Assembly: GCA_022827685.1 (NCBI GenBank)
Contig: JAJEIH010000127.1
Location: 1 to 41,762, forward strand
DNA: 41,762 bases
Reading direction: 5' to 3'
DNA from: Alphaproteobacteria bacterium
GTDB taxonomy: Bacteria; Pseudomonadota; Alphaproteobacteria; Bin95
Positions 2,583 to 41,626 of this stretch are shown here, piece by piece; positions within the stretch are counted from its first letter, which is position 1, and each line of letters opens with the position of its first letter. Position numbers and translations under genes: made by a program. The notes below the pieces were generated by a model. The model did no database searches. It was not told the origin of the DNA and saw only the letters and a list, made by a program, of their open reading frames with translations.

Positions 2583-3413
2583 ATGCGCCGCCCGGCCGAG
2601 ATCAACGTCATGCTGCGGGCGGCGCACGCCGCCGGACGCGGGCTCGCGCGCGATTTCGGCGAGGTCGAAAACCTCCAGGTCTCGGAGAAGGGGCCGGGTG
2701 ATTTCGTCTCGGTCGCGGACCGGCAGGCCGAACGCCGGATCGTCGAGGAGCTCGGCCGCGCGCGGCCGCGCTACGGCTTCCTGCTGGAGGAAAGCGGCGC
2801 CGTCGAGGGCGCCGACACGAGCAACCGGTGGGTCGTCGATCCGCTCGACGGGACAGGCAATTTCCTGCACGGCATCCCGCATTTCTGCATATCCATCGCG
2901 CTCGAACGCGACGGCGAGCCGGTCGCCGCGCTCGTCTATAACCCCCTCACCGACGACACCTACTGGGCCGCGCGGGGCATCGGGGCCTATGCGAACAACC
3001 GGCGGCTCCGCGTCTCGGCGCGGGCGCGCCTGACGCATTGCATCCTGGCGACGGGCGAGGAAGTCGGCGCCGGCGTCGAGGCGAGGGCCGGCTATCTTCG
3101 CCAGCATGCGGCGGTCAAGGAAGCCGGGGTGAGCCTTCGCCGGCTGGGCGCGGCGGCGCTCGATCTCGCCTGGGTCGCGGACGGGCGCCTCGACGGATTC
3201 TGGCATTCGGGCCTCAACCGGTGGGACATCGCGGCCGGCGTGCTGCTGGTGCGCGAGGCCGGCGGCGCGGTGTCCGATACCGACGGGTCCGGAACCATGC
3301 TGGAGACGGGCAATATCCTTGCCGCCAACGACCGTCTGCACGGCCATTTGTGCCGGATCATGGAGAACGCGGCGGGGCCCGCTCCGGTTGCGCCGTCCGG
3401 GCGGGCGGCATAG
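2583..3413 (+). CDS. suhB: Inositol monophosphatase family protein (SuhB-like)
   Basis: The 276-residue protein carries both metal-binding signatures of the Li+-sensitive, Mg2+-dependent phosphatase family. The first is WVVDPLDGTGNFLHG with the preceding acidic EES (corresponding to the usual GEE). The second is LNRWDIAAGVLLVREAGG near the C-terminus. Family members hydrolyse inositol-1-phosphate and related sugar phosphates; E. coli SuhB also takes part in rRNA transcription antitermination. The ATG start lies 6 bp after the efp stop, so the two genes are probably co-transcribed. The substrate is not predictable from sequence, and a role in 3'-phosphoadenosine phosphate (CysQ-like) or histidinol-phosphate hydrolysis cannot be excluded. 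Confidence 0.9.
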   Translation: MRRPAEINVMLRAAHAAGRGLARDFGEVENLQVSEKGPGDFVSVADRQAERRIVEELGRARPRYGFLLEESGAVEGADTSNRWVVDPLDGTGNFLHGIPHFCISIALERDGEPVAALVYNPLTDDTYWAARGIGAYANNRRLRVSARARLTHCILATGEEVGAGVEARAGYLRQHAAVKEAGVSLRRLGAAALDLAWVADGRLDGFWHSGLNRWDIAAGVLLVREAGGAVSDTDGSGTMLETGNILAANDRLHGHLCRIMENAAGPAPVAPSGRAA

Positions 3414-3451
3414 AGTGACCCGATGCTGCCGACGCTGCGGCGGAAAGGGAG

Positions 3452-5386
3452 ATGGCGCGCTACCGAGGCATTTTACGAGCGGCCGTGGCGCTGGCTCTGC
3501 TTCTCCCGGCCGCTTGGCGCGCCGATGCGCAGGACATGCTGGTAATCGATGGCGGCGGGGCGCGCTGGAAGAGCGGTGAAAGCAGGAAGCCGTCCGTGAC
3601 CGTCGATTTCGGCGTGATCGACTCCCTGTCGGCCGACCGCCGGCGGAGCGCTTTCCGAAGGCAGGACCGCCGGGCCCGGCGATATCTGACCCTCAGCATT
3701 CCGCAGCCGGAAACGCCGCCCGCCGTGGTCGAGCGTCTCAAGGCGGCCGTCGCGCCGCCCGATAAGCCGGAGCCGCAGGCCGCAGCCGAGCGCCCCGAAC
3801 CGGCAGCGGCGCCGGCCACGGAGCCGGAACTCGCCGCCATACACCCCGAACCGGACACGGTGCCGACTGCCGAGCCGCAGCCGGAAGCGCGGCCCACAGC
3901 CGCACGCCCCGAGCAGCCTGACGCGCCGACCATGGAGCCCGAGCCGGAACTCGCCGCCATACATCCCGAGCCGGACACGGCGCCGGTCGCCGAACCGAAG
4001 CCGGAGACGCAGCCCACGGCCGAACGCCCCGAGCCGCCCGCCGACCCGGCCAGGGAGCCCGAGCCGGAACTCGCCGTCATACACCCAGCACCGGATACGG
4101 TGCCGACTGCCGAGCCGGAGCCGGAGGCGCAGCCCGCGGCCGAACGCCCCGAGCAGCCTGACGCGCCGGCCACGGAGCCCGAGCCGGAGCTCGCCGTCAT
4201 ACACCCCGAGCCGGACACAGCGCCGGCCGCCGAACCGAAGCCGGAGGCGCGGCCCACGGCCGAACGCCCTGAGCCGACAGCCGCACCGGCCACGGAACCC
4301 GAGCCGGAGCTCGCCGCCATACATCCCGAACCGGACACCGCGCCGGCCGCCCAGCCGGAGCCCGTGACGCAACCCACGGCCGAACGCTCCGAGCCGTCTG
4401 ATGCACCGGTCACGGAGCCCGAGCCGGAACTCGCCGCCATACCGCCAGCGCCGGACACGGCGCCGGTCGCCGAGCCGAAGCCGGAGGCGCGGCCTGCAGC
4501 CGAACGCCCCGAGCCGACAGCCGCACCGGCCACGGAGCCCCAGCCGGAACTCGCCGCCATACTACCCGAGCCGGACTCGGCGCCGCCCGCCGAACCGCCC
4601 GCAAGACCCGTGGCAACCTTGTCGAAACCGACCGACACGCCCCCGGTCCCGCCGGCCCAAGCCGCGCCGGTGCGGCGCCTGCCGGCCGGGGAGACCGACG
4701 CCACACCCGCGCTCCTCGCCTTTCTGAGCCGCGCCGACGGGACCCGGCCGCAGGCGGCGGCGCCTTCGTCGGCAAAGCCCGCGCGCGCGAAACTGCCGCC
4801 GCCGCGCCCCATCCATCCGCGCCCTGCGAAACCGGGCGCGCCGGACCGTTTCCGCCTGCCGCCCCCGGCGCCGGCGACCGATGCGCCCGGGAGCGCCGCC
4901 GCTTCTCCGGCAGTTGCGGGCGGGCTGCCGCCGCCTCCCCCGGCGACCGGAGCGTCCGGGGCCGGCGTCCTGCCGCCTCCGGTCCCGCCGACGGCCGGCG
5001 CGCCCGAAACGCTGCGCCGGAAGCTGGCTCTCGATGCGCCCGGCCTTGCAGCCGTTGCCGCCCCGGTCAGGACCGGCATGTATTCCGAGACGTTCTTCTA
5101 CGAGGCGGGCGGAACGGCGCTCGGCGCGGAGGACCGCGCGCGGCTGGGCGGCCTCGCCGCCAAGCTGGCCGGGGGAAGCGGGCTCACGGTCGAGATTCGG
5201 GCCTATTCCGGCTCCGCCGAAGGCGACGGGGTCGAAGCGCGGCGCGGGGCGTTGTCGCGCGCCATGGAAGTCCGCCGCCTGCTGATTGCCGCCGGCGTGC
5301 CGGAAACCCGCATCGTGGCGCGGGCGGCGGGCGCAGGCGGGGAGGCCGGAGCGCATGTCGATGTCGTGCTGGTCGGGCGAAGTTGA
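3452..5386 (+). CDS. Secreted Pro/Glu repeat protein with C-terminal OmpA-like domain
   Basis: The 644-residue protein has an N-terminal signal peptide (residues 1-26, ending ADAQ) and a short basic conserved region (about 27-95). A Pro/Ala/Glu-rich region (about 110-385) is built from about seven 40-residue repeats containing ELAAIHPEPDT-like cores, and a Pro-rich linker leads to an OmpA-like domain (about 543-644). In that domain, ARRGALSRAMEVRRLLIAAGV matches the helix that contacts peptidoglycan in OmpA/MotB proteins, but the usual GHTD loop is replaced by AYSGSAEGD. The likely role is a periplasmic peptidoglycan-spanning partner of the downstream TolQ/MotA-like channel. Unlike MotB, TolR or ExbD, it has no Asp-bearing transmembrane helix after the signal. 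The repeat number is probably variable between strains. Confidence 0.8.
   Translation: MARYRGILRAAVALALLLPAAWRADAQDMLVIDGGGARWKSGESRKPSVTVDFGVIDSLSADRRRSAFRRQDRRARRYLTLSIPQPETPPAVVERLKAAVAPPDKPEPQAAAERPEPAAAPATEPELAAIHPEPDTVPTAEPQPEARPTAARPEQPDAPTMEPEPELAAIHPEPDTAPVAEPKPETQPTAERPEPPADPAREPEPELAVIHPAPDTVPTAEPEPEAQPAAERPEQPDAPATEPEPELAVIHPEPDTAPAAEPKPEARPTAERPEPTAAPATEPEPELAAIHPEPDTAPAAQPEPVTQPTAERSEPSDAPVTEPEPELAAIPPAPDTAPVAEPKPEARPAAERPEPTAAPATEPQPELAAILPEPDSAPPAEPPARPVATLSKPTDTPPVPPAQAAPVRRLPAGETDATPALLAFLSRADGTRPQAAAPSSAKPARAKLPPPRPIHPRPAKPGAPDRFRLPPPAPATDAPGSAAASPAVAGGLPPPPPATGASGAGVLPPPVPPTAGAPETLRRKLALDAPGLAAVAAPVRTGMYSETFFYEAGGTALGAEDRARLGGLAAKLAGGSGLTVEIRAYSGSAEGDGVEARRGALSRAMEVRRLLIAAGVPETRIVARAAGAGGEAGAHVDVVLVGRS
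3781..4600 (+). repeat. Tandem 120-bp (40-codon) repeats inside the OmpA-domain gene
   Basis: Nearly identical segments ending gccggaactcgccgccat or a close variant recur every 120 bp, finishing at 3840, 3960, 4080, 4200, 4320, 4440 and 4560. The period is an exact multiple of three, so the frame is kept and the encoded unit is about 40 residues rich in Pro, Glu and Ala. The first unit is offset internally and the last is diverged, which suggests expansion by unequal recombination or replication slippage. Confidence 0.9.
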
Positions 5387-5417
5387 AGAACCGGGCTGAA
5401 ACCGCCGGCCGGGCGTC

Positions 5418-6557
5418 ATGACCCGTCCGACCCAGTATCTGGTGCGGATGGCCGTGTTCGTCGCGGTGGTCGTTGCGGCGGCGGTGCTGCTGTTCGGCCC
5501 GGTCGCGGACGCCTTCATGGCCAATCCGGCGCTGAACGGCCTGATCCTGGGCGTGCTGCTGATCGGCATCGCCTACAATTTCCGCCACGTGCTGCGGCTG
5601 TTCCGGGAGATCGCGTGGATCCGCTCGATCCAAGGGCCGGCGCCCGGCCGCGGCGCGCCGGAACCCGCAAGGCCGCAATTGCTGGCGACGCTCGCGACGG
5701 CCTTCTCCTCGGAGGCCCCGGTGCGGTTTTCCGCCGTCTCCATGCGCTCGATCCTCGACGGCGTGGCCTCGCGCGTTGACGAGGCGAGCGAGACGGCGCG
5801 CTACCTTGCCGGGCTGCTGATCTTCCTCGGCCTTATCGGCACGTTCTGGGGGCTCATCCAGACGGTCTCCGCCATAGGCGATGTCATAGGCGGGCTGGAG
5901 ATTGCCGCGGGCAGCCTCACCGGCGTCTTCGAAGAGCTGAAGACCGGCCTCGATGCGCCGCTGGCCGGCATGGGCACGGCGTTCAGCTCCTCGCTGTTCG
6001 GGCTGTCCGGCGCGCTGGTGCTCGGATTCCTCGACCTCCAGGCGTCGCAGGCGTCGAGCCGGTTCGTGAACGAGCTGGAGGAATGGCTGTCCTCGCTCAC
6101 CCGCCTCGGCTCCAGCGGCACGGGCTTCGCCGACGGCGACCATTCGGTGCCGACCTACATCCAGGCGCTGCTTGAAACCACGGCGGAGAACCTGGAGGAT
6201 TTGCGCCGCATCGTCGGCAGGGCGGAAGAGGGCCGTCATTCGGTGAACCGCAATCTCGAGGCGTTGTCGGAGACCCTGGCCGGCCTCGCCGAACAGCTGG
6301 GCACCAGCCAGGCCGCCCATGCGCGGCTCGCGGAAGAGCAGATCGAGACCCAGGCGCTGTTGCGCCGTGTGCTCGAAACCAGGCAGCAGGGGAGCCTGGA
6401 CGCGACGACCCGCCGGCATATCGCCAGTCTTGATTCGGCGCTCCTGCAGATGCGCGACGAGCTGCGGGCGGGACGCAGCGAGCTGACCGAGGACCTGCGC
6501 ACCGAGATCAAGCTGCTGGCCCGCACCGTGTCCGCGCGCCTGGAGGACCGCCGGTGA
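5418..6557 (+). CDS. MotA/TolQ/ExbB-type proton channel family membrane protein
   Basis: The 379-residue protein has four predicted membrane segments at about residues 8-27, 39-55, 129-152 and 183-206. The third contains [18 protein letters not shown], the family's conserved channel-lining motif with T142, and the fourth contains [18 protein letters not shown]. The region from about 207 to 379 is polar, heptad-like and probably a long cytoplasmic coiled coil. Proteins of this family form proton-driven pentameric motors with a MotB/TolR/ExbD partner. The gene starts 31 bp after the OmpA-domain gene, and its stop overlaps the guaA start (GTGA). No flagellar genes are visible, so a cell-envelope role is more likely than swimming. 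Confidence 0.85.
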
Positions 6558-8104
6558 GCGAACGGGTCCTGATCGTCGATTTCGGCAGTCAGGTTACGCA
6601 GCTCATCGCCCGCCGGGTTCGCGAGGCGGGGGTCTATTCCGAGGTTCATCCCTTCAACAGGGTGGACGGGGCCTTCGTTGCGGACTTCGCGCCGATAGCG
6701 GTCATTCTTTCCGGCGGGCCGGCCTCGGTGCTCTCATCCTCGGCGCCGTCCGCCCATCCGGCGCTGTTCGAGGCGGGCGCGCCGGTGCTGGGCATCTGCT
6801 ACGGGCAGCAGGTCATGGCGGCGCAGATGGGCGCCCATGTCCGGTCCGCCGACCACCGGGAGTTCGGGCGCGCAACGGTGGAGGCGGTCGCGGAGAGCGC
6901 GCTGTTCGAGGGCGTCTGGGAGCCGGGCGGGCGCTACCCGGTCTGGATGAGCCACGGCGACCGGGTCGAGACGCTGCCGGAAGGGTTCCGGGTCGCCGCG
7001 CGCAGCGAAGCCGCGCCCTATGCCGCCATCGCGAACGAGGACCGGCGGCTCTACGGCGTGCAGTTCCACCCCGAGGTCGTGCATACGCCCGACGGCGCCG
7101 GGCTGATCCGCAACTTCGTGCGCCGCATCGCGGGGGCCAAGGCCGACTGGTCGATGGCGGCCTTCCGGGAAACGGCTGTCGCCCAAATCCGCGCGGAGGT
7201 CGGCGGCGGGCGGGTCGTGTGCGGGCTTTCCGGCGGCGTGGACAGCACGGTTGCCGCGCTGCTGCTGCATGAAGCGGTCGGGGACCGGCTCAGCTGCATC
7301 TTCGTGGATACGGGCCTGATGCGTGCGGACGAGGCCGGGGAGGTGGTCGGCCTGTTCCGCAGCCATTTCAACATCCCGCTGGTGCATGCCGACGCGGGCC
7401 CGCTGTTCCTCGAGCGGCTGGCCGGCGTCGAGGACCCCGAGAGCAAGCGCAAGATCATCGGCGCCGCCTTCATCGAGGTGTTCGAGGCGGAGGCGGCGAG
7501 GCTCGGCGGCGCGGACTTTCTCGCCCAGGGAACGCTCTATCCGGACGTCATCGAGTCGGTCGCCTTCGACGGCGGTCCGTCGGTCACGATCAAGTCACAC
7601 CACAATGTCGGCGGCCTGCCGGAGCGCATGGGACTCGGGCTCGTCGAACCGCTCAGGATGCTGTTCAAGGACGAGGTCCGCGCGCTTGGCCGGGAACTCG
7701 GCCTGCCGGACCGCTTCGTCGGGCGCCATCCCTTCCCGGGCCCGGGGCTGGCGATCCGGATGCCGGGCGCGGTGGAGCCGGACAAGCTGGAGGCGCTCCG
7801 GCGGGCCGACGCCATCTTCCTGGAGGAGATCCGGCGCGCGGGCCTGTATGACGACATCTGGCAGGCCTTCGCGGTGCTGCTGCCGGTGCGCACGGTGGGC
7901 GTCATGGGCGACGACCGCACCTATGAACAGGCCTGCGCGCTCCGCGCCGTCACCTCCGCCGACGGCATGACGGCGGACTTCTACCCCTTCGACGCGGGCT
8001 TTCTCGGCCGGGTCGCGGTCCGGATCGTCAATGAAGTGCCGGGCATAAACCGCGTCGTTTACGACGTGACCTCCAAGCCGCCCGGCACCATCGAGTGGGA
8101 ATAG
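6554..8104 (+). CDS. guaA: GMP synthase (glutamine-hydrolysing)
   Basis: The 516-residue protein makes GMP from XMP, ATP and glutamine, the last step of GMP biosynthesis. The N-terminal class I amidotransferase domain shows C82 in LGICYGQQ and H172/E174 in FHPEV. The ATP-pyrophosphatase domain begins with [10 protein letters not shown] (PP-loop near residues 226-231), and the C-terminal dimerisation domain ends with the characteristic [10 protein letters not shown]. The GTG start overlaps the preceding stop codon by four bases, so translation is coupled to the MotA-like gene. Length and motifs are complete. Confidence 0.98.
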
Positions 8105-8111
8105 CCGGGCT

Positions 8112-9152
8112 TCAGTCCACCGGCACGCCGTATTTCTCGCCGAGCGCCCTGAACTGGCTCCAGGTGGCGTCCTCGATGTCGATGCCGTCCGCCCGCCGCG
8201 CTGCGGCGGTGCGCCGCTCGATCTCGCCGGGCGCCAGCACTTCCTCGACGCCGGCGGCGGTCCGCGTGCTCTTCAGATAGTCCACGAACTCGTCCACCTC
8301 GCGCCCGAACTCGTCCGGGTCGCGGAAGGCGGCGGCCTTGAAGAGCGCGAGGAAGCAGCCGTCATTGTGCCGCCCCGTCGGCTCGACGCCGAAGCCGAGC
8401 CCGGTCAGGAGCCCTGAGAGGATTTCGACCATCGCGGAGAGCCCGTAGCCCTTGTGGCCCTCGCTTCCGCCGAGCGGCAGCAGCACCGCGCCCTTGCCGA
8501 AATCACTGGGGTCCGTCGAGGCCCCGCCGTCCGAGCGCACGATCCAGCCTTCGGGAATCCCCTTGCCGCGCGCCTGGGCGAGCTTGATCTTGCCGGCGGC
8601 GACCGCCGAGGTCGCCATGTCGATCAGCACCGGCTCGCCGCGCGCAGACGGCACCGCCATGGCTATCGGGTTGGTCCCGAGCCGCGCTTCCGCGCCGCCG
8701 AACGGCGCCACGCTCTTCGGCGAGCGGCCCGAATCGGCGGTCATCATGGCGATGAAGCCGGCCTTCGCGGCCATGGTCGGATAGGCGCCGAGGCGGCCGA
8801 CATGGCTCTGGCGGAAGATCGTGCAGGCGGCGACGTTCTGGGCCTCGGCCTTTTCCATGGTGAGCTTCAGCGCGCGCTCGGCAATGGCGTAGCCGAAGCC
8901 CCAATGGCCATCCACAACCGTGGTCGTCGGGCTTTCGCGGACGATCTCGAAGGGCGCGCCGGGCACGATATGGCCCTTTTCCACCCTGTCGATATAGATC
9001 GGGATCTGGATTGCGCCGTGGCTGTCATGGCCGCAGAGATTGGCGTCCACCACATGGCGCGCGACGATTTCCGCCTCGTCATCGGGCGTGCCGCAGGCGG
9101 CCAGCAGGCGGCGGATGGTGTCTTCCAGTTTCCCGGCGGCGATAATCGGCAT
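8112..9152 (-). CDS. Ldh_2 family malate/L-lactate-type dehydrogenase
   Basis: The protein belongs to the NAD(P)-dependent malate/lactate/ureidoglycolate/sulfolactate dehydrogenase family, which is unrelated to classical Rossmann-fold LDH. Visible marks are HDSHGAIQIPIYIDRVEKG with the catalytic His, the VDGHWGFGYAIA region, LGTNPIAMAVPS and the C-terminal GHKGYGLSAMVEILSGLLTG. The length is 346 residues from the chosen ATG at 9152, which has AGAGGA ten bases upstream. A GTG at 9173 would add seven residues. Oxidation of a 2-hydroxy acid in the cytoplasm is expected, but members use many substrates. It converges on guaA (7-bp gap) and diverges from the M32 peptidase gene. Confidence 0.88.
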   Translation of the reverse strand: MPIIAAGKLEDTIRRLLAACGTPDDEAEIVARHVVDANLCGHDSHGAIQIPIYIDRVEKGHIVPGAPFEIVRESPTTTVVDGHWGFGYAIAERALKLTMEKAEAQNVAACTIFRQSHVGRLGAYPTMAAKAGFIAMMTADSGRSPKSVAPFGGAEARLGTNPIAMAVPSARGEPVLIDMATSAVAAGKIKLAQARGKGIPEGWIVRSDGGASTDPSDFGKGAVLLPLGGSEGHKGYGLSAMVEILSGLLTGLGFGVEPTGRHNDGCFLALFKAAAFRDPDEFGREVDEFVDYLKSTRTAAGVEEVLAPGEIERRTAAARRADGIDIEDATWSQFRALGEKYGVPVD

Positions 9153-9252
9153 GGGGTGCGGTTCCTCTCTCACATGGCGCGACTTCCGAGCATGGACCGG
9201 CTACGGTGCCGGGGTCCAGTCCGGAAAAGGCATACGCCGGGGGGAATATTGG

Positions 9253-10716
9253 ATGGGCAATGGGAGCTACGAGCGGCTGGAGCGCCGGTTCGCGCGCATC
9301 GGCGACCTGAATGCGGCGGCGCGGACCGTGCGCTGGTATTCGCTGACTTACGGGCCGCCGGGGGGCGAGGCCTCGCGGGGGCACCAGCTGGCCACTCTCG
9401 GCGGGCTCGCGCATGAGCTGCTGGTCGCGCCGGAGGCCGCGGAGGCGCTGGCGGCCGCGGAGGCGGAAGAGCCCTGGCAGGCGGCCAATCTCAGGGAAAT
9501 GCGCCGCCTGCACACCGCCGCCAGCGCCGTGCCTTCAGAGCTGGTGGAAGCGAAGGCGCGGGCCGTCTCCAGGGCGCAGGCGGTGTGGCATGCGGCGCGC
9601 CCCGAAGGCGATTTCGCCGCGTTCCTGCCGGCGCTCCGCGACGTTGTGGAACGCACCCGGGAGGACGCGCAGATCAAGGGCGAGGCGCAGGGCCTTGCGC
9701 CCTACGATGCCCTGCTCGACATCTACGATCCGGGCCGGCGCAATGCGGAGGTCGCGGCCATGTTCGGGGAACTGGAAGCGGTCCTGCCGGGCGTGATCGA
9801 CAAAGTGCGGGGCGGTCCGAAACCGCCGGGGCCGGAAGGGCCGCGGGAGGGCCTCGAGAGAATCGCCCGACGGATGATGGCCATGCTGGGCTTGGAAGAA
9901 CAGCATGTGAGGCTCGACGAGTCCGCGCACCCGTTCTCCACGGGCGAGCGGGACGATGTGCGCATCACCACCCGCTATTCGGGGCCGCCGGGCGAGGCCC
10001 TGATGGGGGTTCTGCACGAAAGCGGACACGCGCTCTATACGCGCGGGCTGCCCGAACAATGGCGCCGGCAGCCGGTCGGCCGGAACCGGGGCATGACGGC
10101 GCACGAGAGCCAGTCACTGTCCATCGAGATGCAGGCCTGTCGTTCGGAGGCCTTCGCCGTCCACTATGCGCGGCTGCTGGAAGAGGAGTTCGGCCCGGAG
10201 GGCGCGTGGGAGCCGGCGCGGCTCTACGGCGTGCTGACCCATGTCGAGCCGGACCTGATCCGCGTCGAGGCGGACGAGGTCAGCTATCCGCTGCACATCG
10301 CGGTCCGCTACCGCTGCGAAACCGCGCTGATTTCGGGCGCGCTCGACCCGTCGGACCTGCCCGGCGCCTTCGACGATGCGACCGAGGCCCTGCTCGGCAT
10401 CCGCCCGCCGGGGCCCCGCGAAGGCTGCATGCAGGACATCCACTGGTCGGGCGGCTCCTTCGGCTATTTCCCCACCTACACGCTCGGCGCGCTGATGGCG
10501 GCCCAGCTTGCCGAGGCCATGCGCGCGGCGCTGCCCGACCTGGACCGCGAGATCGGGCAGGGCGATTTCCGCCCGCTCATCGGCTGGCTCAGGGAGCATG
10601 TCCACGGCAGGGGCTGCTTCGATGCGTCCTCGGACGACCTCGTGGCGCAGGCGACAGGCCGGCCGCTCGATACGAGCGCCTTCATCCGCCACATCGGCGA
10701 ACGCTACGCCGGCTGA
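9253..10716 (+). CDS. M32 family carboxypeptidase (carboxypeptidase Taq type)
   Basis: The 487-residue protein matches the normal length of M32 zinc carboxypeptidases. The HExxH motif is HESGH (H255, E256, H259) in VLHESGHALYTRGLP. It is followed by the family-specific HESQSL and RYRCETALISGALDPSDLP segments, and by WSGGSFGYFPTYTLGALMAAQ near the C-terminus. The enzyme removes C-terminal residues from peptides in the cytoplasm. The frame is open upstream to 9040, but homologous sequence begins at MGNGSYERLERRFA, so the ATG at 9253 is preferred; a weak GGGGAA lies just upstream. The function is probably general peptide turnover. Confidence 0.93.
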   Translation: MGNGSYERLERRFARIGDLNAAARTVRWYSLTYGPPGGEASRGHQLATLGGLAHELLVAPEAAEALAAAEAEEPWQAANLREMRRLHTAASAVPSELVEAKARAVSRAQAVWHAARPEGDFAAFLPALRDVVERTREDAQIKGEAQGLAPYDALLDIYDPGRRNAEVAAMFGELEAVLPGVIDKVRGGPKPPGPEGPREGLERIARRMMAMLGLEEQHVRLDESAHPFSTGERDDVRITTRYSGPPGEALMGVLHESGHALYTRGLPEQWRRQPVGRNRGMTAHESQSLSIEMQACRSEAFAVHYARLLEEEFGPEGAWEPARLYGVLTHVEPDLIRVEADEVSYPLHIAVRYRCETALISGALDPSDLPGAFDDATEALLGIRPPGPREGCMQDIHWSGGSFGYFPTYTLGALMAAQLAEAMRAALPDLDREIGQGDFRPLIGWLREHVHGRGCFDASSDDLVAQATGRPLDTSAFIRHIGERYAG

Positions 10717-10735
10717 CGACCCGCCCCGGCAGCGG

Positions 10736-10765
10736 TTTCCGTCCGGGGTGGAAAGGCGGTAGATT
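10736..10765 (+). promoter_or_regulatory. Weak putative promoter upstream of Liv-type operon
   Basis: TTTCCG (10736-10741) and TAGATT (10760-10765) are separated by 18 bp in the 94-bp gap before the binding-protein gene. The match to consensus is partial. A strong Shine-Dalgarno sequence (GGGGAGG) follows near 10795. Confidence 0.25.
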
Positions 10766-10810
10766 AGGGTCGTCCGGCGGTCTGCCGCCAAACCGGGGAG
10801 GGTTTACGAC

Positions 10811-11995
10811 ATGAAGAAAACCGCGCTTGCGCTGGCGGCTGCCGCCGCGCTGCTTGCGTCGCCGTCTTTCGGCGCCGACAAGGTGAAAATCGGCTTCGTC
10901 ACAACGGTCACCACGCCTGCGGGCGTCATCGGGCGCGACATGGTCGATGCCGTCAATCTCGCCATGAAGGACATCGGCGGCATGATGGGCGGCCTCGAGG
11001 TCGAACTCATCATCGAGGATGACGGCTTCAAGCCGGAGATCGGCAAGCAGAAGACCGACAAGCTGGTCAAGCAGGACGATGTGCATTTCGTCGCCGGGTT
11101 CATCTGGTCGCATGTGCTGCTCGCCTCGCGCAAATCGGCGCTCGACGGCGGCAAATTCCTCATCAGCTCCAATGCCGGCCCCTCGCAGATCGCCGGCAAG
11201 CTCTGCCACGAGAACTTCTTCTCCACCTCCTGGCAGAACGACCAGACGCCGATGGCGATGGGCGAGGTGCTGAACCAGCGCGGCGTCAAGTCGCTCTATG
11301 TGATGGCGCCCAACTACGCCGCCGGCAAGAACATGGTCTCCGGCGTCGAGCGCACCTTCAAGGGCGAGATCCTCGGCAAGGACATGACCAAGTGGGGCAA
11401 GGACGCGCAGCTCGACTTCTCCGCCGAGCTCGCCAAGGCCAAGGCCTCCGGCGCGGACGGCATCTTCGTGTTCTATCCGGGCAAGGCCGGCGGCGCCTTC
11501 ATCAAGCAGTACCAGCAGGCCGGCCTGCAGGGCGAAATCGCGCTCTACACGGTGTTCACCGTCGACTCGATTGCGCTGCCGAACCTCCAGAAGGCCGGCA
11601 TGTCGGGCGTGCTCGGCTCGCTCAACACGCAGTTCTGGGGCCCCGATCTCGACACGCCGCAGAACAAGAAGTTCGTCTCCGGCTTCAAGGAGGCCTACGG
11701 GCGCTATCCGTCCTTCTACGCCGCGCAGTCCTACGACACGATCTTCCTCATCAAGAGCGCGGTCGAGGCCGTCGGCGGGAACATGGACGACATGGACGGC
11801 ATGCGCGCGGCCATGATGAAGGCCGACTTTCCCTCCGTGCGCGGGCCGTTCCGCTACGGCAACAACCACTTCCCGATCCAGAACTTCTATCTGAGGCAGG
11901 TGGTCGAGGATGCCGACGGGGTGTGGACGACGACGGTGGTCGATACGGTGCTGAAGGACCACCAGGACGTGTACGCCGCCGAGTGCAAGATGTAG
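10811..11995 (+). CDS. Liv-type ABC transporter periplasmic binding protein
   Basis: The 394-residue precursor has a clear signal peptide (MKKTALALAAAAALLASPSFGA) and a type I periplasmic-binding-protein fold (Peripla_BP_6). Typical pieces are KIGFVTTVTTPAGVIGRDMVDAV at the N-terminus, DDGFKPEIGKQKTDKLV and YVMAPNYAAGKNMVSGV. It captures the substrate for the four following genes. This subfamily imports branched-chain amino acids, amides, urea or aromatic and other acids, so the ligand cannot be named. A strong GGGGAGG ribosome-binding site precedes the ATG. The gene is 19 bp ahead of the first permease, an arrangement that usually gives excess binding protein. Confidence 0.92.
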   Translation: MKKTALALAAAAALLASPSFGADKVKIGFVTTVTTPAGVIGRDMVDAVNLAMKDIGGMMGGLEVELIIEDDGFKPEIGKQKTDKLVKQDDVHFVAGFIWSHVLLASRKSALDGGKFLISSNAGPSQIAGKLCHENFFSTSWQNDQTPMAMGEVLNQRGVKSLYVMAPNYAAGKNMVSGVERTFKGEILGKDMTKWGKDAQLDFSAELAKAKASGADGIFVFYPGKAGGAFIKQYQQAGLQGEIALYTVFTVDSIALPNLQKAGMSGVLGSLNTQFWGPDLDTPQNKKFVSGFKEAYGRYPSFYAAQSYDTIFLIKSAVEAVGGNMDDMDGMRAAMMKADFPSVRGPFRYGNNHFPIQNFYLRQVVEDADGVWTTTVVDTVLKDHQDVYAAECKM

Positions 11996-12014
11996 CGGAG
12001 GAGCCGGCCCGCCC

Positions 12015-12938
12015 ATGGATGCGGGTCTCGTCGCCGCGCAATTGCTGAACGGGCTTCAGCTCGGAGTGCTGCTGTTCCTGCTGGCCTCCGGGCTGACGCT
12101 CATTTTCGGCATCATGGACTTCGTCAATCTGGCGCATGGCTCGCTCTACATGGTGGGCGCCTATTTCTGCGCCACGCTGACGGACGCGACGGGCTCCTTC
12201 CTGCTGGCGGTGGCGCTGGCATTGCCGGCCACGGCGCTCGTCGGCGCGGCGGTCGAGCTTCTCGTGGTGCGCCGGCTCTACCGCCGCGACCACCTGGACC
12301 ATGTGCTCGCGACCTTCGGGCTCATCCTGTGCTTCGACGCCCTCGTGCAGATCATCTGGGGGCCTGAGGGCATGGCGATCCGCCTGCCGGCCTGGGCGGA
12401 CGGGCAGCAGCACCTGCCGGGCGGGCTGGTGTTCCCGACCTACCGGCTGCTGATCATCGGGGCCGGGCTTGCCGTGGCCGCCGGGCTCTATGTGCTGGTG
12501 GTGAAGACGAAGCTCGGCATGCGCATCCGCGCCGGCGCCTCCAACCCGGCCATGGCCGGCGCGCTCGGCATCGACATCGGCCTCCTGTTCACGCTGGTGT
12601 TCGCGCTCGGCGCCGTGATGGCGGGGCTCGCCGGCATGATGATCGCGCCCATTACCGAAGCCTCCATCGGCATGGGCAACGAGATCATCATCACGGCCTT
12701 CGTCGTCGTCATCGTGGGCGGCATCGGGTCGATCCGCGGCGCCTTCGTCGCGGCGCTGCTGATCGGGCTCATCGACACGATGGGCCGGTCCTTCCTCGAC
12801 ATGGGCCTCAAGCTGGTCATCGACGTCCAGGCCGCCGAGACCTCCGCGCCGGCGCTCTCGGCGATGCTGATCTACATCCTGATGGCGGCCGTGCTGGCGT
12901 TCCGTCCGCAGGGCCTCTTCCCGCCGAAGGCGCGATGA
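12015..12938 (+). CDS. LivH-type ABC transporter permease
   Basis: The 307-residue inner-membrane protein has about eight hydrophobic segments. It begins with LLNGLQLGVLLFLLASGLTLIFGIMDFVNLAHGS, the usual LivH N-terminus. The cytoplasmic loop that docks on the ATPases is near RIRAGASNPAMAGALGIDIG, and VVVIVGGIGSIRGAFVAALLIG is the conserved end region. It pairs with the next permease, and the genes overlap by four bases (ATGA at 12935). Confidence 0.93.
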   Translation: MDAGLVAAQLLNGLQLGVLLFLLASGLTLIFGIMDFVNLAHGSLYMVGAYFCATLTDATGSFLLAVALALPATALVGAAVELLVVRRLYRRDHLDHVLATFGLILCFDALVQIIWGPEGMAIRLPAWADGQQHLPGGLVFPTYRLLIIGAGLAVAAGLYVLVVKTKLGMRIRAGASNPAMAGALGIDIGLLFTLVFALGAVMAGLAGMMIAPITEASIGMGNEIIITAFVVVIVGGIGSIRGAFVAALLIGLIDTMGRSFLDMGLKLVIDVQAAETSAPALSAMLIYILMAAVLAFRPQGLFPPKAR

Positions 12939-13858
12939 GCCGGGCGGTCGGCTGGGCGCTGCTGGCCGCGCTTGCCGTCGGACCGCCGCTGGCGCTCGCC
13001 GCCGGCCAGCCCTTCTATGTCGACATCCTGACGCGCCTCGTCTGCCTCGCCGCGGCCGCCACCTCGCTCAACCTCATCCTCGGCCATGGCGGCATGATCA
13101 GCTTCGGCCATGCGGCCTATATCGGCATCGGCGCCTATGCGGTCGGCATCCCGGCCTATTACGAAATTTACGACGGCTGGCTGCATATCCTGCTCGCCGT
13201 CGCATTCTCCGCCCTGTTCGCGCTCGCCACGGGCGCCATCGCGCTGCGCACGCGCGGCGTCTATTTCATCATGATCACGATGGCGTTCGCGCAGATGGTA
13301 TTCTTCGCCGTCGTCAGCATCGAGGAATATGGCGGCGACGACGGCCTGGTGATCGACATCCGCTCGGAGTTCCCGCTGGTCGATCTGGAGGACAGCCTCA
13401 CCCTCTACTATGCCTGTTTCGCAGTCCTGCTCGGCACGCTCTACCTGGTGCACCGGCTTGTGCGGTCGCGCTTCGGCATGGTGATCGAGGGCGCCAGGGG
13501 CAATGAACGCCGGATGGCCGCGCTCGGCTTCGCGTTCTACCGCCACCGTCTCGCCGCCTACACGCTCGCCGGCGCGCTCTGCGGCCTCAGCGGCGCCATG
13601 CTCGGCAATTTCACCAATTTCATCAGCCCCGAGATGATGGACTGGACGCGCTCGGGCGAGCTGATCTTCATGGTGGTGCTGGGCGGGACGGGCGCGCTGT
13701 TCGGGCCGCTGATGGGCGCGGCCGCCTTCCTGCTGCTGGAGGAGCTGCTGTCCGGCTGGACGATCTACTGGCAGCTTCCCTTCGGCCTGCTGCTCATCCT
13801 GGTCGTGCTGTTCGCGCGCGGCGGGCTCGCGGGGCTGCTGGAGGGGCGCCGTGGCTGA
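12935..13858 (+). CDS. LivM-type ABC transporter permease
   Basis: The 307-residue membrane protein carries the LivM signature SLNLILGHGGMISFGHAAYIGIGAYAVG, a docking loop at GNERRMAALGFAFYRHRLAAYTLAGALCGLSGAM, and VVLGGTGALFGPLMGAAAFLLLEE near the end. It forms the translocation heterodimer with the LivH-type protein. It overlaps both neighbours: four bases with livH-like and eight bases with the first ATPase gene. Confidence 0.93.
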   Translation: MSRAVGWALLAALAVGPPLALAAGQPFYVDILTRLVCLAAAATSLNLILGHGGMISFGHAAYIGIGAYAVGIPAYYEIYDGWLHILLAVAFSALFALATGAIALRTRGVYFIMITMAFAQMVFFAVVSIEEYGGDDGLVIDIRSEFPLVDLEDSLTLYYACFAVLLGTLYLVHRLVRSRFGMVIEGARGNERRMAALGFAFYRHRLAAYTLAGALCGLSGAMLGNFTNFISPEMMDWTRSGELIFMVVLGGTGALFGPLMGAAAFLLLEELLSGWTIYWQLPFGLLLILVVLFARGGLAGLLEGRRG

Positions 13859-14606
13859 CGAACCGCTGCTCCGGGTCGAGGACCTGCAGAAGAGCTTCGG
13901 CGGGGTCGCCGCCGTCGATGGCGTGTCGATGGAGGTGCGCCGCGGCGAGGTCCATGCCGTGATCGGGCCGAACGGGGCCGGCAAGACGACCCTGATCTCC
14001 CTGCTCGCCGGGGAGCTGCGGCCGGACCGGGGCCGCGTGCTGTTCGACGGGCGCGACATCGCCCGCAGGCCCGCCCATGCCCGGGCGAGGCTCGGTTTTG
14101 CGCGCTCGTTCCAGATCACCAGCGTCGTGCCCGGGATGCGGGTGGTGGACAATGCGATGCTGGCGGTGCTCGCGCGGGACGGGCGGAGCTTCCGCTTCTG
14201 GCGCCCGGCGAGGAACGACCCGGCGCTCATCCGGCCGGCCATGGCGGCGCTGGAACGGGTGGGCCTCGCCGAGGTGGCCGAAGAGCGGGCGGGCGCCGTC
14301 AGCCACGGCGAGCACCGCCAGCTGGAAATCGCCATGACGCTGGCGGCGGAACCGGAACTGCTGCTGCTGGACGAACCGATGGCCGGCATGAGCGCGGAGG
14401 AAAGCCGGCGCATGACCGGCATTCTGGAAGGCCTCAAGGGCGAGAAGACCATGCTGCTGGTCGAGCATGACATGGATGTCGTGTTCGCGCTCGCCGACCG
14501 GATCAGCGTGCTCGTGGGCGGGCGCATCGCCGCCTCGGGGGCTCCCGACGCCGTGCGCGCCGACGAGGCCGTGCGCCGCGCCTATCTCGGCGACGAGGCG
14601 GCCTGA
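13851..14606 (+). CDS. LivG-type ABC transporter ATPase
   Basis: The 251-residue ATPase has Walker A GPNGAGKTTL, a signature written VSHGEHRQLEIAM in place of LSGGQ (a usual variant in LivG/UrtD proteins), Walker B LLLLDEPMAGMS and an H-loop in LLVEHDMDVVF. It hydrolyses ATP for the importer. It starts with GTG at 13851 inside the end of the livM-like gene, which indicates translational coupling. Confidence 0.92.
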   Translation: MADEPLLRVEDLQKSFGGVAAVDGVSMEVRRGEVHAVIGPNGAGKTTLISLLAGELRPDRGRVLFDGRDIARRPAHARARLGFARSFQITSVVPGMRVVDNAMLAVLARDGRSFRFWRPARNDPALIRPAMAALERVGLAEVAEERAGAVSHGEHRQLEIAMTLAAEPELLLLDEPMAGMSAEESRRMTGILEGLKGEKTMLLVEHDMDVVFALADRISVLVGGRIAASGAPDAVRADEAVRRAYLGDEAA

Positions 14607-14607
14607 C

Positions 14608-15309
14608 ATGCTGCGGATCGAGGGACTGGAGACATTCTACGGGCGCAGCCAGGCGCTGTTCGGCATTTCACTGGAGGTCGGCGAGGGCGAGGCGGTGGGC
14701 TTCATGGGCCGCAACGGCATGGGCAAGACGACCACCGTGAACTCGCTGTTCGGCATCGTGCCGTCCGCGGCGGGCGCGATCCTGTTCGAGGGCCGCGAGC
14801 TGCGCGACATGCCCTCCCACCGCATCGGCCGCCTCGGCCTGGGGCTTGTGCCCGAGGGCCGGCAGGTGTTCCCCAACCTGACGGCCGAGGAGAACCTGGT
14901 CGCGGCGGCCGCCAACCGCGGCGGACGCAGCAATCCGTGGACGGCCCCGCGCATCTTCGGGATGTTCCCGGAGCTGGAGGCGCGCCGGCGCAATATGGGC
15001 AATCTGCTTTCGGGGGGCGAGCAGCAGATGCTGGCGATCGGGCGCGCGCTGATGACCAACCCCAGGCTGCTGGTGCTGGACGAGGCGACCGAGGGCCTGG
15101 CGCCGCTGGTCCGCCGGCGCATCTGGGAGTGCCTCGCCAGCCTGAAGGAAGAAGGGCAGGCGATCCTCGTCATCGACCGGAATGTGGCGGACCTCGCCCG
15201 CCTCGGCGACCGCCACTATATCGTCGAGAAGGGCCGGATCGTCTGGACCGGCACCAGCGCGGAGCTGACCGGAGGCGGCGCCGACCTCGAACGCTGGCTC
15301 GGCGTGTAA
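14608..15309 (+). CDS. LivF-type ABC transporter ATPase
   Basis: The 233-residue ATPase has Walker A GRNGMGKTTT, signature LLSGGEQQMLAIGRAL and Walker B LLVLDEATEGLAPLV, the last typical of LivF. The region after Walker B reads AILVIDRNV, where LivF proteins usually have a VEQN-like sequence; an H-loop histidine is absent, as is common in the subfamily. The ATG at 14608 follows the livG-like stop by one base and matches the family's N-terminus (MLRIEGLETFYGRSQ). The importer cassette is complete: one binding protein, two permeases and two ATPases. Confidence 0.92.
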   Translation: MLRIEGLETFYGRSQALFGISLEVGEGEAVGFMGRNGMGKTTTVNSLFGIVPSAAGAILFEGRELRDMPSHRIGRLGLGLVPEGRQVFPNLTAEENLVAAAANRGGRSNPWTAPRIFGMFPELEARRRNMGNLLSGGEQQMLAIGRALMTNPRLLVLDEATEGLAPLVRRRIWECLASLKEEGQAILVIDRNVADLARLGDRHYIVEKGRIVWTGTSAELTGGGADLERWLGV

Positions 15310-15376: not shown

Positions 15377-15733
15377 CTAGCCGGAATACCAGACCGAGTA
15401 GGAGTTCGGCGCGAGCATGAAGGGTATGTGGTAGCGCCCCTCCGGGTCCGGCATCTCCAGGCGCACGACCACTTCGCGCATGAAGCGGGGACCGTGCGGC
15501 GGCGGCGTCATGGCCGAGAAACAGGCCCCGGCATCCAGCACCATCTCATAGACGGCGCCGGGCCTGAGGTCCGCCGGGTCGATCTCCTTCGCGAGCCGGC
15601 CGCCCTCGTCGGTCGCCTGCCGGAACAGTTCGGTGCGCCGGCCGTCGGCGTCGATCCGGGTGAGCGTGACGGGAACGCCGCCGGCATGGCTGCCGTCGAC
15701 CGAGTTCAGCGTGTGCGTGGACAGCAAGGCCAT
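15377..15733 (-). CDS. Transthyretin-like protein (5-hydroxyisourate hydrolase family) with altered C-terminus
   Basis: The 118-residue protein is full length for the family. It starts with LSTHTLNSVDG (catalytic-type H7), has R46 in DEGGRLAKE, and H102 in YHIPFMLAP. True 5-hydroxyisourate hydrolases end in YRGS, and that tail completes the active site. This protein ends SYSVWYSG, so the aligned tail is WYSG. The three other catalytic residues are present, so it may act on a different substrate. It follows the ThDP enzyme gene with only 3 bp between stop and start, so the two are almost certainly co-translated. No other purine- or urate-degradation gene is in the window. The family call is firm; hydroxyisourate hydrolysis is uncertain. 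Confidence 0.85.
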   Translation of the reverse strand: MALLSTHTLNSVDGSHAGGVPVTLTRIDADGRRTELFRQATDEGGRLAKEIDPADLRPGAVYEMVLDAGACFSAMTPPPHGPRFMREVVVRLEMPDPEGRYHIPFMLAPNSYSVWYSG

Positions 15734-15736
15734 CGG

Positions 15737-17467
15737 CTACTCGATCGACGCCTTGTCGCGCCTGTCGGTGGTGGCGAGCACGATCGGGCTGATCACGCCC
15801 TTCGCCTTCACATTCAGGCAGGCGGGCCTGCCGCTGGCGAGCGCGCGCCGGAGCGCCGGGCCGAGCTGGTCGCGGCTCTCCACCAGTTCCCCGTAGCCGC
15901 CCATGCCCTCGAAGATGCCGTGGAACGGGATGTCGCGGAAATCCGTGGCGAAGTGGCCGCCGCTTTCGAACAGCCGCTCCTGCTGCTGGGAGATGCAGTC
16001 GAGGCCGCCATTGTTGTCGATCACGACCGTGATGGGGCAGTCTTCCTGGAACGCCGCCTCGATGCCGAGCCCGCCGGAAAGGAACGCGCCGTCGCCGCTG
16101 ATCAGCACCACATTGCTGTCGGGATGGGTGTTCTTCGCCGAGAGCGCGAGCGAAACGCCGACGCCGAGCAAGGAATAGGACCCGGGATGCAGGATGCCGG
16201 CGAGCTTCTGCCCTTCCCATCCCGCGACATTCACCGCGATCTCCGACCAGAAGTGGGTGTTGCCGCCGTCGAAGACCAGCCAGTCCTTCTCCGAGAGCGC
16301 GCGGTTGACGTCGATGGCAAGCTGGAGCGGGTGCATCTTCTCGCCCCTCGCCTCGCCCGCCTCATTGTCGGCGTCGAGGTCGGCCAGCGTCCGCTCCACC
16401 CATTCGCCGCGCCGGGCGCGGTTGAGCGCGAACCATGCCTCGTCGAACGGGGCGAGCGTCATCAGGCTGTCGAAGAAGGCGCCCGGGTCGCTGAGCAGCA
16501 CATGGTCGGCCGCCCGGTTCAGCTCCAGTTCCTCATGGCTGCCGTTCACGCAGACCAGCTCGCAGCTTTCGGGGAACATCGGCGGGTTGCCGAAATTCAT
16601 CTGGTTGTCGAGGCGCCCGCCGACCATGACCGCGATATCGCAGTTTTCGGCGGCGAAGCAGTAGGGCGGATACTGGTGCCGGTCCGCCAGCCCCATATAG
16701 GCCTCGCTCTCCTCGCCCAGCAATTTCTGGTGGTAGGGCACGTTGAAGACCGGGATGTTGAGGGCCCGCCCGGCCCCTTCCAGCTTCTTCTCGTTGCCGG
16801 ACCACCACACGCCGTGCCCGCCGATGAGGATCGGCCGGCGCGCGGCGGCCAGCCGCTCCATCAACGGGTCCAGGTCGCGCGGGTCGGGCCAGGCCCGCGG
16901 AACCGGCCGGCCGGCGCGGGAGAAGGGCCGCTCGTCCCGCCCGGCGTCCTCGTCCACCGAGGAGAACATGATATCGACGGGCAGGCTGAGATGGACCGGG
17001 CCCGGATAGCCGCTGGTCGCGATCTTCCAGGCGCGGTCCACGAACTCGCCGATCCGCGTCCCGTCCGTGATGCTGGCGGAGTATTTGGTGAGCGGCCCGG
17101 CGATGGCAACGTCGTCGATCTCCTTGAAGCCGCCGGCGCCCTGGCGCTTCAGGGTGCTCGACCCGGTGATGAAGATGACCGGCGAGCGCTCGCCCCAGGC
17201 TTCCATGATCGCCGGCACCGCGTTGGCGAAGCCCTCCGGCCCCACCAGGCAGACCGCCGGCTTGCGCGTGATGCGCGTGTGCCCGTCCGCCAGATGCCCG
17301 GCGACCTGTTCGTGAGGGCAGTTCACCACCCTCGTCTGGCACTCCATGAAGCCCTCGAGCGCGGGGTTGCAGAACCCGCCGGCGAGCGTGAAGACATTCT
17401 CCACGCCCTTCTCGTGCAGCGCGCGCGCCAGCACATTCCCGCCCCGAAGGCGTCTCGTTCCGTCCAT
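15737..17467 (-). CDS. Thiamine-diphosphate-dependent enzyme (acetolactate synthase/decarboxylase superfamily)
   Basis: The 576-residue protein has the three-domain layout of this superfamily. The N-terminal pyrimidine-binding domain carries the cofactor-activating E53 in CPHEQVAGHLADGHTR. A central domain (about 195-340) resembles the DHAP/NAD-like fold. The C-terminal pyrophosphate-binding domain carries GDG (458-460) and NN (485-486), the Mg-ThDP motif. E53 argues against glyoxylate carboligase, which has Val at that position. The reaction could be decarboxylation or carboligation of a 2-oxo acid; the substrate is unknown. The ATG at 17467 with GGGGGA upstream is preferred over a TTG at 17497. 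The phosphatase gene lies 84 bp upstream on the same strand, and the transthyretin-like gene follows after 3 bp. Confidence 0.85.
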   Translation of the reverse strand: MDGTRRLRGGNVLARALHEKGVENVFTLAGGFCNPALEGFMECQTRVVNCPHEQVAGHLADGHTRITRKPAVCLVGPEGFANAVPAIMEAWGERSPVIFITGSSTLKRQGAGGFKEIDDVAIAGPLTKYSASITDGTRIGEFVDRAWKIATSGYPGPVHLSLPVDIMFSSVDEDAGRDERPFSRAGRPVPRAWPDPRDLDPLMERLAAARRPILIGGHGVWWSGNEKKLEGAGRALNIPVFNVPYHQKLLGEESEAYMGLADRHQYPPYCFAAENCDIAVMVGGRLDNQMNFGNPPMFPESCELVCVNGSHEELELNRAADHVLLSDPGAFFDSLMTLAPFDEAWFALNRARRGEWVERTLADLDADNEAGEARGEKMHPLQLAIDVNRALSEKDWLVFDGGNTHFWSEIAVNVAGWEGQKLAGILHPGSYSLLGVGVSLALSAKNTHPDSNVVLISGDGAFLSGGLGIEAAFQEDCPITVVIDNNGGLDCISQQQERLFESGGHFATDFRDIPFHGIFEGMGGYGELVESRDQLGPALRRALASGRPACLNVKAKGVISPIVLATTDRRDKASIE

Positions 17468-40672: not shown

Positions 40673-41626
40673 ATGGCGAAGCACAAGGGACCGGGCAAGG
40701 CAGACCGCGAAGGCATTAGCCTGATGCAGCTTACCGCCATGTTCCCGGATGAGGCGGCCGCGACCGCGTATTTCGAGTCGCTGGTATGGCCGCACGGCCG
40801 CTATTGCCCGCACTGCGGTTGCACGGAGACGGTCGAGGCTGCGCCGTCCGCGAAAATGCCCTACCGCTGCACCGGCTGCCAGAGGACCTTTTCGGTCAAG
40901 ATCGGGACGGCGCTGGAGCGGTCGCGCGTGTCGATGCGCCAGTGGGTTTTCGCCATCTATCTGGAAATGACGAGCCTGAAAGGCGTTTCGTCGATGAAGC
41001 TGCATCGAGACATAGGCGTGACACAGAAGACGGCTTGGTTCATGCTTCACCGCATCCGGGAGGCGTGGGGCGGTCTGAAAGAGACCTTTGACGGCCCCGT
41101 GGAAGCGGACGAGACCTATATGGGCGGGCGTCGGGCGAACATGTCCAAGGCGAAGCGGAAAGAGCTTGCGGACACGGGCCGGGGCACTGTCGGCAAGACC
41201 GCCGTTGCCGGCGTGAAGGATCGGGCGACGAATGAGGTCCGGGCGAAGGTCGTTGCCGATACGACCGGCGCGACGCTGCAAGGCTTCGTGCGCCAGCACG
41301 CGGCGCCGGGCGCAACCGTCTATACCGACGAGGCCACCGCCTATGCCGGACTGGCGGCCGACTTCGAGCACGAAGCCGTCAATCACAGTGTCGCGGAATA
41401 TGTGCGCGGGCAGGCGCATACGAACGGCATGGAGAGCTTCTGGAGCATGTTGAAGCGCGCCCATAAGGGCGTCTATCACAAGCTGTCCGCGAAGCATCTT
41501 GACCGCTATGTCCGGGAGTTTGCCGGACGGCACAATGTCCGCGAGGCGAACACGGTGGACCAGATGGCGTCCGTGGTCGCCGGGATGGTCGGCAAGCCCC
41601 TGATGTACCGCGACTTGATCGCCTAG
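40673..41626 (+). CDS. IS1595-family transposase (ISXO2-like domain)
   Basis: The 317-residue protein begins with a zinc ribbon (CPHCG at about residues 44-48 and CTGCQ at about 66-70). A helix-turn-helix region follows (MRQWVFAIYLEMTSLKGVSSMKLHRDIGVTQKTAWFMLHRI). The catalytic core has acidic residues in VEADETYMGGRR and YTDEATAY and the end motif HTNGMESFWSMLKRAHKGVYH, the DD-N/E pattern of ISXO2-like transposases. No frameshift or stop interrupts it, so it may be active. It is expressed from its own promoter. Confidence 0.95.
   Translation: MAKHKGPGKADREGISLMQLTAMFPDEAAATAYFESLVWPHGRYCPHCGCTETVEAAPSAKMPYRCTGCQRTFSVKIGTALERSRVSMRQWVFAIYLEMTSLKGVSSMKLHRDIGVTQKTAWFMLHRIREAWGGLKETFDGPVEADETYMGGRRANMSKAKRKELADTGRGTVGKTAVAGVKDRATNEVRAKVVADTTGATLQGFVRQHAAPGATVYTDEATAYAGLAADFEHEAVNHSVAEYVRGQAHTNGMESFWSMLKRAHKGVYHKLSAKHLDRYVREFAGRHNVREANTVDQMASVVAGMVGKPLMYRDLIA

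Follow-up and report, generated by a model that had tools for sequence, protein, structure and literature searches.

The gene pair of the window

The stretch of DNA analysed here (the window, 41,762 nucleotides of an alphaproteobacterial contig) carries two adjacent genes on its minus strand, and all coordinates given below for this pair refer to that strand. The first gene (positions 15737 to 17467) starts with ATG and encodes a ThDP-dependent enzyme of 576 amino acids. The second (15377 to 15733), whose start is separated from the stop codon of the first by a gap of 3 bp (15734 to 15736), encodes a predicted hydrolase of 118 amino acids with the transthyretin-like (TTR-like) fold of 5-hydroxyisourate hydrolases (HIUases). 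The original prediction had described this arrangement, as well as an activating glutamate, E53, in the larger protein and the combination of H7, R46, and H102 with a WYSG ending in the smaller one, and each of these readings was borne out.

In the ThDP protein, Pfam recognises the N, M, and C domains of TPP_enzyme (E-values of 2e-31, 7e-21, and 3e-23). Glu53 (codon at 17309 to 17311), the cofactor-activating residue, aligns with the corresponding glutamate of solved ThDP lyases and is present in 81/81 relatives, and the GDG-NN motif (G458-D459-G460 and N485-N486) is conserved. Both PDB sequence matches and Foldseek comparisons indicate that the closest solved relatives are 2-hydroxyacyl-CoA lyase (HACL), benzaldehyde lyase/formolase (BAL), and oxalyl-CoA decarboxylase (OXC); the AlphaFold model is good overall (pLDDT 79.9) but poor at residues 489 to 508 and at the C-terminus. 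The window's subfamily shares with these enzymes the three-domain architecture, the activating Glu, and the GDG-NN motif, but it is only 24 to 26% identical to them over the fold alignments and is without a characterised member. Among the equivalog families shown, the protein stays below every cut-off, with 211.7 bits against 600 for HdaclCoAlyACT, 169.9 against 557 for the oxalyl-CoA decarboxylase family, and 243 against 587 for PRK05858, the best of the acetolactate synthase families. Within the subfamily, identity is 70 to 80% across classes of Pseudomonadota, and 298 of the 576 positions are conserved at 97% or more. The C-terminus (RDKASIE, 15737 to 15800) is near-invariant across these classes, which is unusual for a terminus.

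The small protein belongs to the Transthyretin family PF00576 (62.9 bits against a cut-off of 25.3; E-value of 5.2e-17). Its AlphaFold model, built with 30 relatives, has a pLDDT of 90.6, and HIUases are its best Foldseek matches, with 4q14 at the top (1e-10) and 8uw4 and 7kcn also among them. Its residues H7 (codon at 15713 to 15715), R46 (15596 to 15598), and H102 (15428 to 15430) correspond to His7, Arg41, and His92 of the HIUase of K. pneumoniae (PMC8272043). Its C-terminus reads HIPFMLAPNSYSVWYSG, so that W115-Y116-S117-G118 (codons at 15380 to 15391) stands, in an equal-length replacement, where HIUases of the same length end in YRGS.

A Liv-type importer had also been noted next door. 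Its position is as described, but the neighbourhood is not conserved. Together with an Ldh_2 dehydrogenase and an M32 carboxypeptidase, it forms a genus-core block (window positions 8115 to 15309), and all seven genomes of the genus that we searched have it at 93 to 100% identity. No pair was found in four of these, and in G004 and G005 the importer lies on a different contig from the pair. We therefore rejected the importer as a component of the system, and, given that this block is located apart from the pair in relatives, it provides no evidence on the pair's substrate. Elsewhere in the window, a frame at 40673 to 41623 has an N-terminus that, by eye only, resembles an IS1595-type transposase.

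Conservation of the pair and its separation from 5-hydroxyisourate hydrolases

Species genomes were scanned with a ThDP enzyme alignment, which gave 488 candidates; we inspected the best 80 of these together with up to 10 kb of flanking sequence per side. These 80 relatives (70 to 96% identity) span SAR11, SAR116, Rhizobiales, Rhodobacterales-type bacteria, and gamma- and betaproteobacteria, and many of them are freshwater and soil-type genomes. In every one of the 80, the small gene lies directly downstream of the ThDP gene. It is an intact open frame in 78; two loci that could be taken to lack it (L036 and L081) do contain it, split by Ns in the former and by a frameshift within an A run in the latter, and their apparent absence of the gene was rejected. 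Of the 78 homologous pairs, 66 have a gap of no more than 10 bp between the two genes, and no plasmid-borne relatives of the pair were found. Since the 80 nearest relatives all have it, the pairing goes beyond chance, and the possibility, raised with the original prediction, that the pair occurs in this genome only can be set aside.

Two even draws of genomes give the same picture. When 385 alphaproteobacterial genomes were drawn, six contained a ThDP orthologue, and a TTR-like match of at least 149 bits was found in these six alone, the next best being 89. The chance that two random sets of six coincide is 2e-13, or 4e-9 by genus, although these values are only indicative because of shared descent. 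Among about 396 genomes drawn from Pseudomonadota, G000 and G681 carry both genes, and these are adjacent. In both draws (about 400 genomes each), the ThDP orthologue and the small subfamily occur in exactly the same genomes.

The tail is conserved together with the pair, as the original prediction had proposed to check in homologues. Position 115 is W in 85/85 distinct paired proteins, whereas it is Y in 53/53 unpaired HIUases, all of which end in YRGS or YRGN. Position 117 is S in 81 of the 85 paired proteins, and position 116, which is R in HIUases, is variable among them, mostly W. Altogether, four switches distinguish the two sets (P16 to H, N42 to D, Y115 to W, and G117 to S); for instance, the subfamily-specific His16 (codon at 15686 to 15688 in the window) is present in 85/85 paired proteins, while 50 of the 53 HIUases have Pro there. 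In contrast, H7, R46, Y101, H102, and P104 are common to both sets, with H7, R46, and H102 in 85/85 paired proteins and 53/53 HIUases. In a tree of 139 rows, a single branch parts paired from unpaired proteins with a support of 100/100, and the split persists at a support of 97 after removal of the tail columns; the forks within each set are unsure because the alignment is short (about 118 columns). The HIUase equivalog TIGR02962 separates the proteins in the same way, as the window protein scores 62.4 bits, and all eight scored subfamily members, this one included, fall at 61.6 to 73.4, under the cut-off of 87.45, while three YRGS proteins score 126 to 128. Thus, the subfamily resembles HIUases (HiuH/PucM) in fold, length, the H7/R46/H102 set, the YHxP motif, and the length of the tail, and it differs from them in the residues above, in its score, in the constant presence of a ThDP enzyme beside it, and in the lack of a purine locus among the 80 loci.

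The published work on HIUases allows these residues to be read in terms of function. In the K. pneumoniae enzyme, His92 and His7 activate water and the carbonyl is polarised by two Arg41 residues, while the tail contributes Tyr105, which holds the substrate, and the C-terminal Ser, whose carboxylate is salt-bridged to Arg41 (PMC8272043). Deletion of the tail tetrapeptide strongly suppresses catalysis, whereas S108A alone has little effect (PMC8272043), and the transthyretin-like protein of Salmonella dublin shows no rapid hydrolysis of 5-hydroxyisourate when it carries Y108F (PMC4324301). These published mutations indicate that the Tyr and the tail matter for 5-hydroxyisourate. From these residue roles, it follows that the paired subfamily keeps the water-activating set and is without the substrate-holding Tyr, which, as far as sequence comparison can tell, is the look that one would expect of a protein with a changed substrate and retained chemistry.

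It might be argued that the small protein is a divergent HIUase, acting on 5-hydroxyisourate or on a methylated form of it, as TmuH does for methylurates. The fold and the His-Arg-His set are retained, there is a demethylase in the operon of relatives (see below), and the effect of S108A in K. pneumoniae is mild. We nevertheless consider this very unlikely, given that the tail Tyr is gone in all 85 paired proteins, that the tail deletion and Y108F impair hydrolysis, and that every scored member lies under the TIGR02962 cut-off. Moreover, no purine or urate gene recurs beside the pair in the 80 loci, and several genomes that carry the paired subfamily also have a separate YRGS copy. The genome of the window has one as well. 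The original prediction stated that no purine-degradation genes are nearby, which holds within the window but not for the genome, in which contig C46 carries a purine permease, a fusion of a PuuE-like part of the polysaccharide-deacetylase type with OHCU decarboxylase, a YRGS HIUase, XDH, and urate oxidase (L122:2763-13446). The proposed non-urate role and the coupling to the ThDP enzyme both stand, because the pair and the non-YRGS tail are found together throughout the genomes examined and a separate purine locus has its own YRGS enzyme.

In our literature search, we found no report of a WYSG homologue proven to hydrolyse 5-hydroxyisourate, and nothing on the function of the gene pair or of the SAR11 transthyretin. 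There is, however, a closely related observation. In the parts of a 2025 paper available to us (PMC11698098), a second homologue of "5-hydroxyisourate lyase" in SAR11 and SAR116 is described as having low similarity to the copy of the purine operon, lying at another location, and occurring without purine genes; the conclusion was that it has "a different function", and it was excluded from the counts. This homologue very probably corresponds to the W-x-S subfamily, and the present analysis very probably identifies its context. The ThDP pairing, the tail, the operon, and the function are not reported in those parts of the paper.

A different possibility is that the small protein is not catalytic at all, but a partner or stabiliser of the ThDP enzyme that uses the HIUase fold for binding, in the manner of a regulatory small subunit. 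The obligate 1:1 adjacency, with such short gaps in most pairs, would suit this role, and the extreme conservation of the ThDP protein, including its final SIE, might reflect a docking surface. However, H7, R46, Y101, H102, and P104 are invariant in the 85 paired proteins, and binding alone needs none of them; indeed, transthyretins of the human type, which are binding proteins without hydrolytic activity, have lost the enzyme residues (PMC4324301). We thus regard a purely structural role as unlikely. The subfamily described here shares with vertebrate transthyretin its descent from the HIUase fold and the missing YRGS tail, but it keeps the hydrolytic His and Arg, is bacterial, and belongs to a catabolic operon.

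The operon of relatives and a candidate catabolic route

The earlier reading of the pair missed an operon that is evident across the 80 loci. The usual order is an FMN-dependent 2-hydroxyacid dehydrogenase (68/80), the ThDP enzyme, the TTR-like protein, and a GcvT/DmdA-like demethylase (74/80). The upstream region often encodes a divergently oriented ABC importer of the peptide type (SBP_bac_5 in 42 of the 80 loci) and a peptidase S51 (39/80), and the importers vary in kind across loci, including Opp/Dpp, TRAP, Tct, and Liv types. In SAR116 loci, MttB-family genes lie between the S51 and LysR genes (L167:4243-5865, L168:11278-12828, and L095:6235-7794), and a second GcvT-type gene occupies this position in SAR11; known members of the MttB family demethylate quaternary amines. 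In several lineages, the operon is followed by genes for MetF-like proteins, PurU, and homocysteine methyltransferase, which is consistent with oxidation of a folate-held methyl group. The first gene of the operon is replaced by one for a GlcD-type FAD enzyme in L107, a second hint that a step from 2-hydroxyacid to 2-oxoacid belongs to the route. Even so, "2-hydroxyacid" would itself be a provisional label, because the FMN enzyme often has Phe at the position of the usual carboxylate-binding Tyr24 (Phe in 52 and Tyr in 7 of the 59 read). Two loci have, near the cluster, genes for SBP56 proteins, which are relatives of methanethiol oxidase that do not reach the MtoX cut-off (L107:2178-3530 and L169:9000-10349).

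The demethylase found in this operon elsewhere, and not in the window, is 42 to 49% identical to DmdA of P. ubique and reaches 524 to 580 bits with PRK12486, the NCBIfam model of DMSP demethylase, above its cut-off of 410 (authentic DmdA, 3tfh, scores 636). The DMSP-specific residue of DmdA is W171 (PMC7487153). At the equivalent position of the partner proteins, located by its spacing to the E and the Y in this motif, 72 of the 74 have Tyr and the other 2 have Phe. Considering also the different operon, residue comparison indicates that this demethylase is not DmdA proper, and its target could be an S-, N-, or O-methyl group. PRK12486 would label it as DMSP demethylase, for example at L066:12089-13231, L035:10933-12057, L080:13161-14285, and L037:12076-13212, and metagenome counts of dmdA may therefore include it.

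Taking these data together, the small protein probably acts as a non-urate hydrolase that is coupled to the ThDP step within a catabolic module for demethylation. A nutrient pathway different from urate use is in fact very likely, because the tail needed for urate chemistry is lost and the gene always stands beside one and the same ThDP enzyme. The protein would be a neofunctionalised HIUase fold that keeps His-Arg-His to activate water at a carbonyl, exchanges the Tyr that holds 5-hydroxyisourate and the RGS tail for W-x-S plus the new His16, and works in step with the adjoining enzyme, presumably on its substrate or its product. We would give roughly even chances to the broader proposal of an undescribed catabolic route, found in SAR11, SAR116, and Proteobacteria of fresh water and soil, in which an HIUase-fold enzyme that has become a non-urate hydrolase is tied to a C-C cleaving ThDP enzyme, and which feeds on a common methylated dissolved compound.

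In lineages with the full operon, the following order of steps and types of reaction seem plausible to us. The route would begin with import, and an amide-type bond might then be hydrolysed by the S51 peptidase, or by an asparaginase in close relatives of the window. The DmdA-like demethylase would transfer methyl groups to folate, with an MttB-family or second GcvT-type demethylase added in marine lineages. The FMN enzyme would convert a 2-hydroxyacid to a 2-oxoacid, the ThDP enzyme would carry out a C-C cleavage or decarboxylation, and the TTR-like protein would contribute a hydrolysis, probably the opening of a ring or imide. As for the class of substrate, we tentatively favour a methylated onium organic acid or amide (quaternary ammonium or sulfonium) of plankton and other organisms, with somewhat less than even confidence.

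Two more specific substrates deserve consideration. The first is a dimethylsulfonium hydroxyacid, such as 4-dimethylsulfonio-2-hydroxybutyrate, which would undergo DmdA-like demethylation, FMN-dependent oxidation to 4-methylthio-2-oxobutyrate, and decarboxylation to methional by the ThDP enzyme. The similarity of the partner to a sulfonium demethylase, the SBP56 proteins of L107 and L169, and the presence of MtnA near the operon of L045 are in line with this scheme. However, it leaves both the TTR-like hydrolase and the S51 peptidase without a role, the DMSP-specific Trp is replaced by Tyr or Phe, the MttB-family neighbours suggest quaternary amines, and many freshwater and soil-type genomes carry the system, so we find it quite unlikely.

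The second is the degradation of mycosporine-like amino acids, in which the methoxy group on the ring would be O-demethylated, the TTR-like protein would hydrolyse the imine, and the ThDP enzyme would cleave the ring as cyclohexane-1,2-dione hydrolase or IolD does. From the chemistry, such a route would provide a job for every enzyme, including the peptide-type importer, and it would suit sunlit marine and fresh waters. Nevertheless, the closest solved relatives of the ThDP enzyme are HACL, BAL, and OXC, with no dione hydrolase among the matches listed, and DmdA-type enzymes are, to our knowledge, not known to act as O-demethylases. The literature on mycosporine degradation yielded no supporting paper either, and we consider this option highly improbable.

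If the preferred reading of a methyl-removing module with a non-urate hydrolase is true, there are several consequences. The subfamily enzymes are now annotated as 5-hydroxyisourate hydrolase and the operon partner as DMSP demethylase, and both labels would mislead; thus, ocean counts of purine use and of DMSP use would need to be split by the tail (W-x-S versus YRGS) and by the Trp-to-Tyr switch. A nutrient route would come to light in cells that are among the most abundant on Earth, with the operon as a direct list of candidate genes for the pathway. Finally, there would be a bacterial case of HIUase-fold neofunctionalisation that keeps catalysis, alongside that of vertebrate transthyretin.

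The situation in the window's own genus is somewhat different. There, the pair does not have the FMN and DmdA-like genes as neighbours, and the candidates for orthologues elsewhere in the genome of the window were rejected, being homologues of only 35 to 37% identity. For this reason, the full route may not run in this genus as described above. Directly upstream of the pair, two relatives of the same genus carry a gene for an asparaginase, another amide hydrolase, in the place that S51 has in other lineages. An Ldh_2-family gene follows the demethylase in the SAR116 locus L168, and in the alphaproteobacterial genome of L045, the operon is adjoined by genes for MtnA (7633-8712), a class II aldolase (7001-7633), an MttB-family protein (4435-6093), and a GcvT-type protein (3304-4404).
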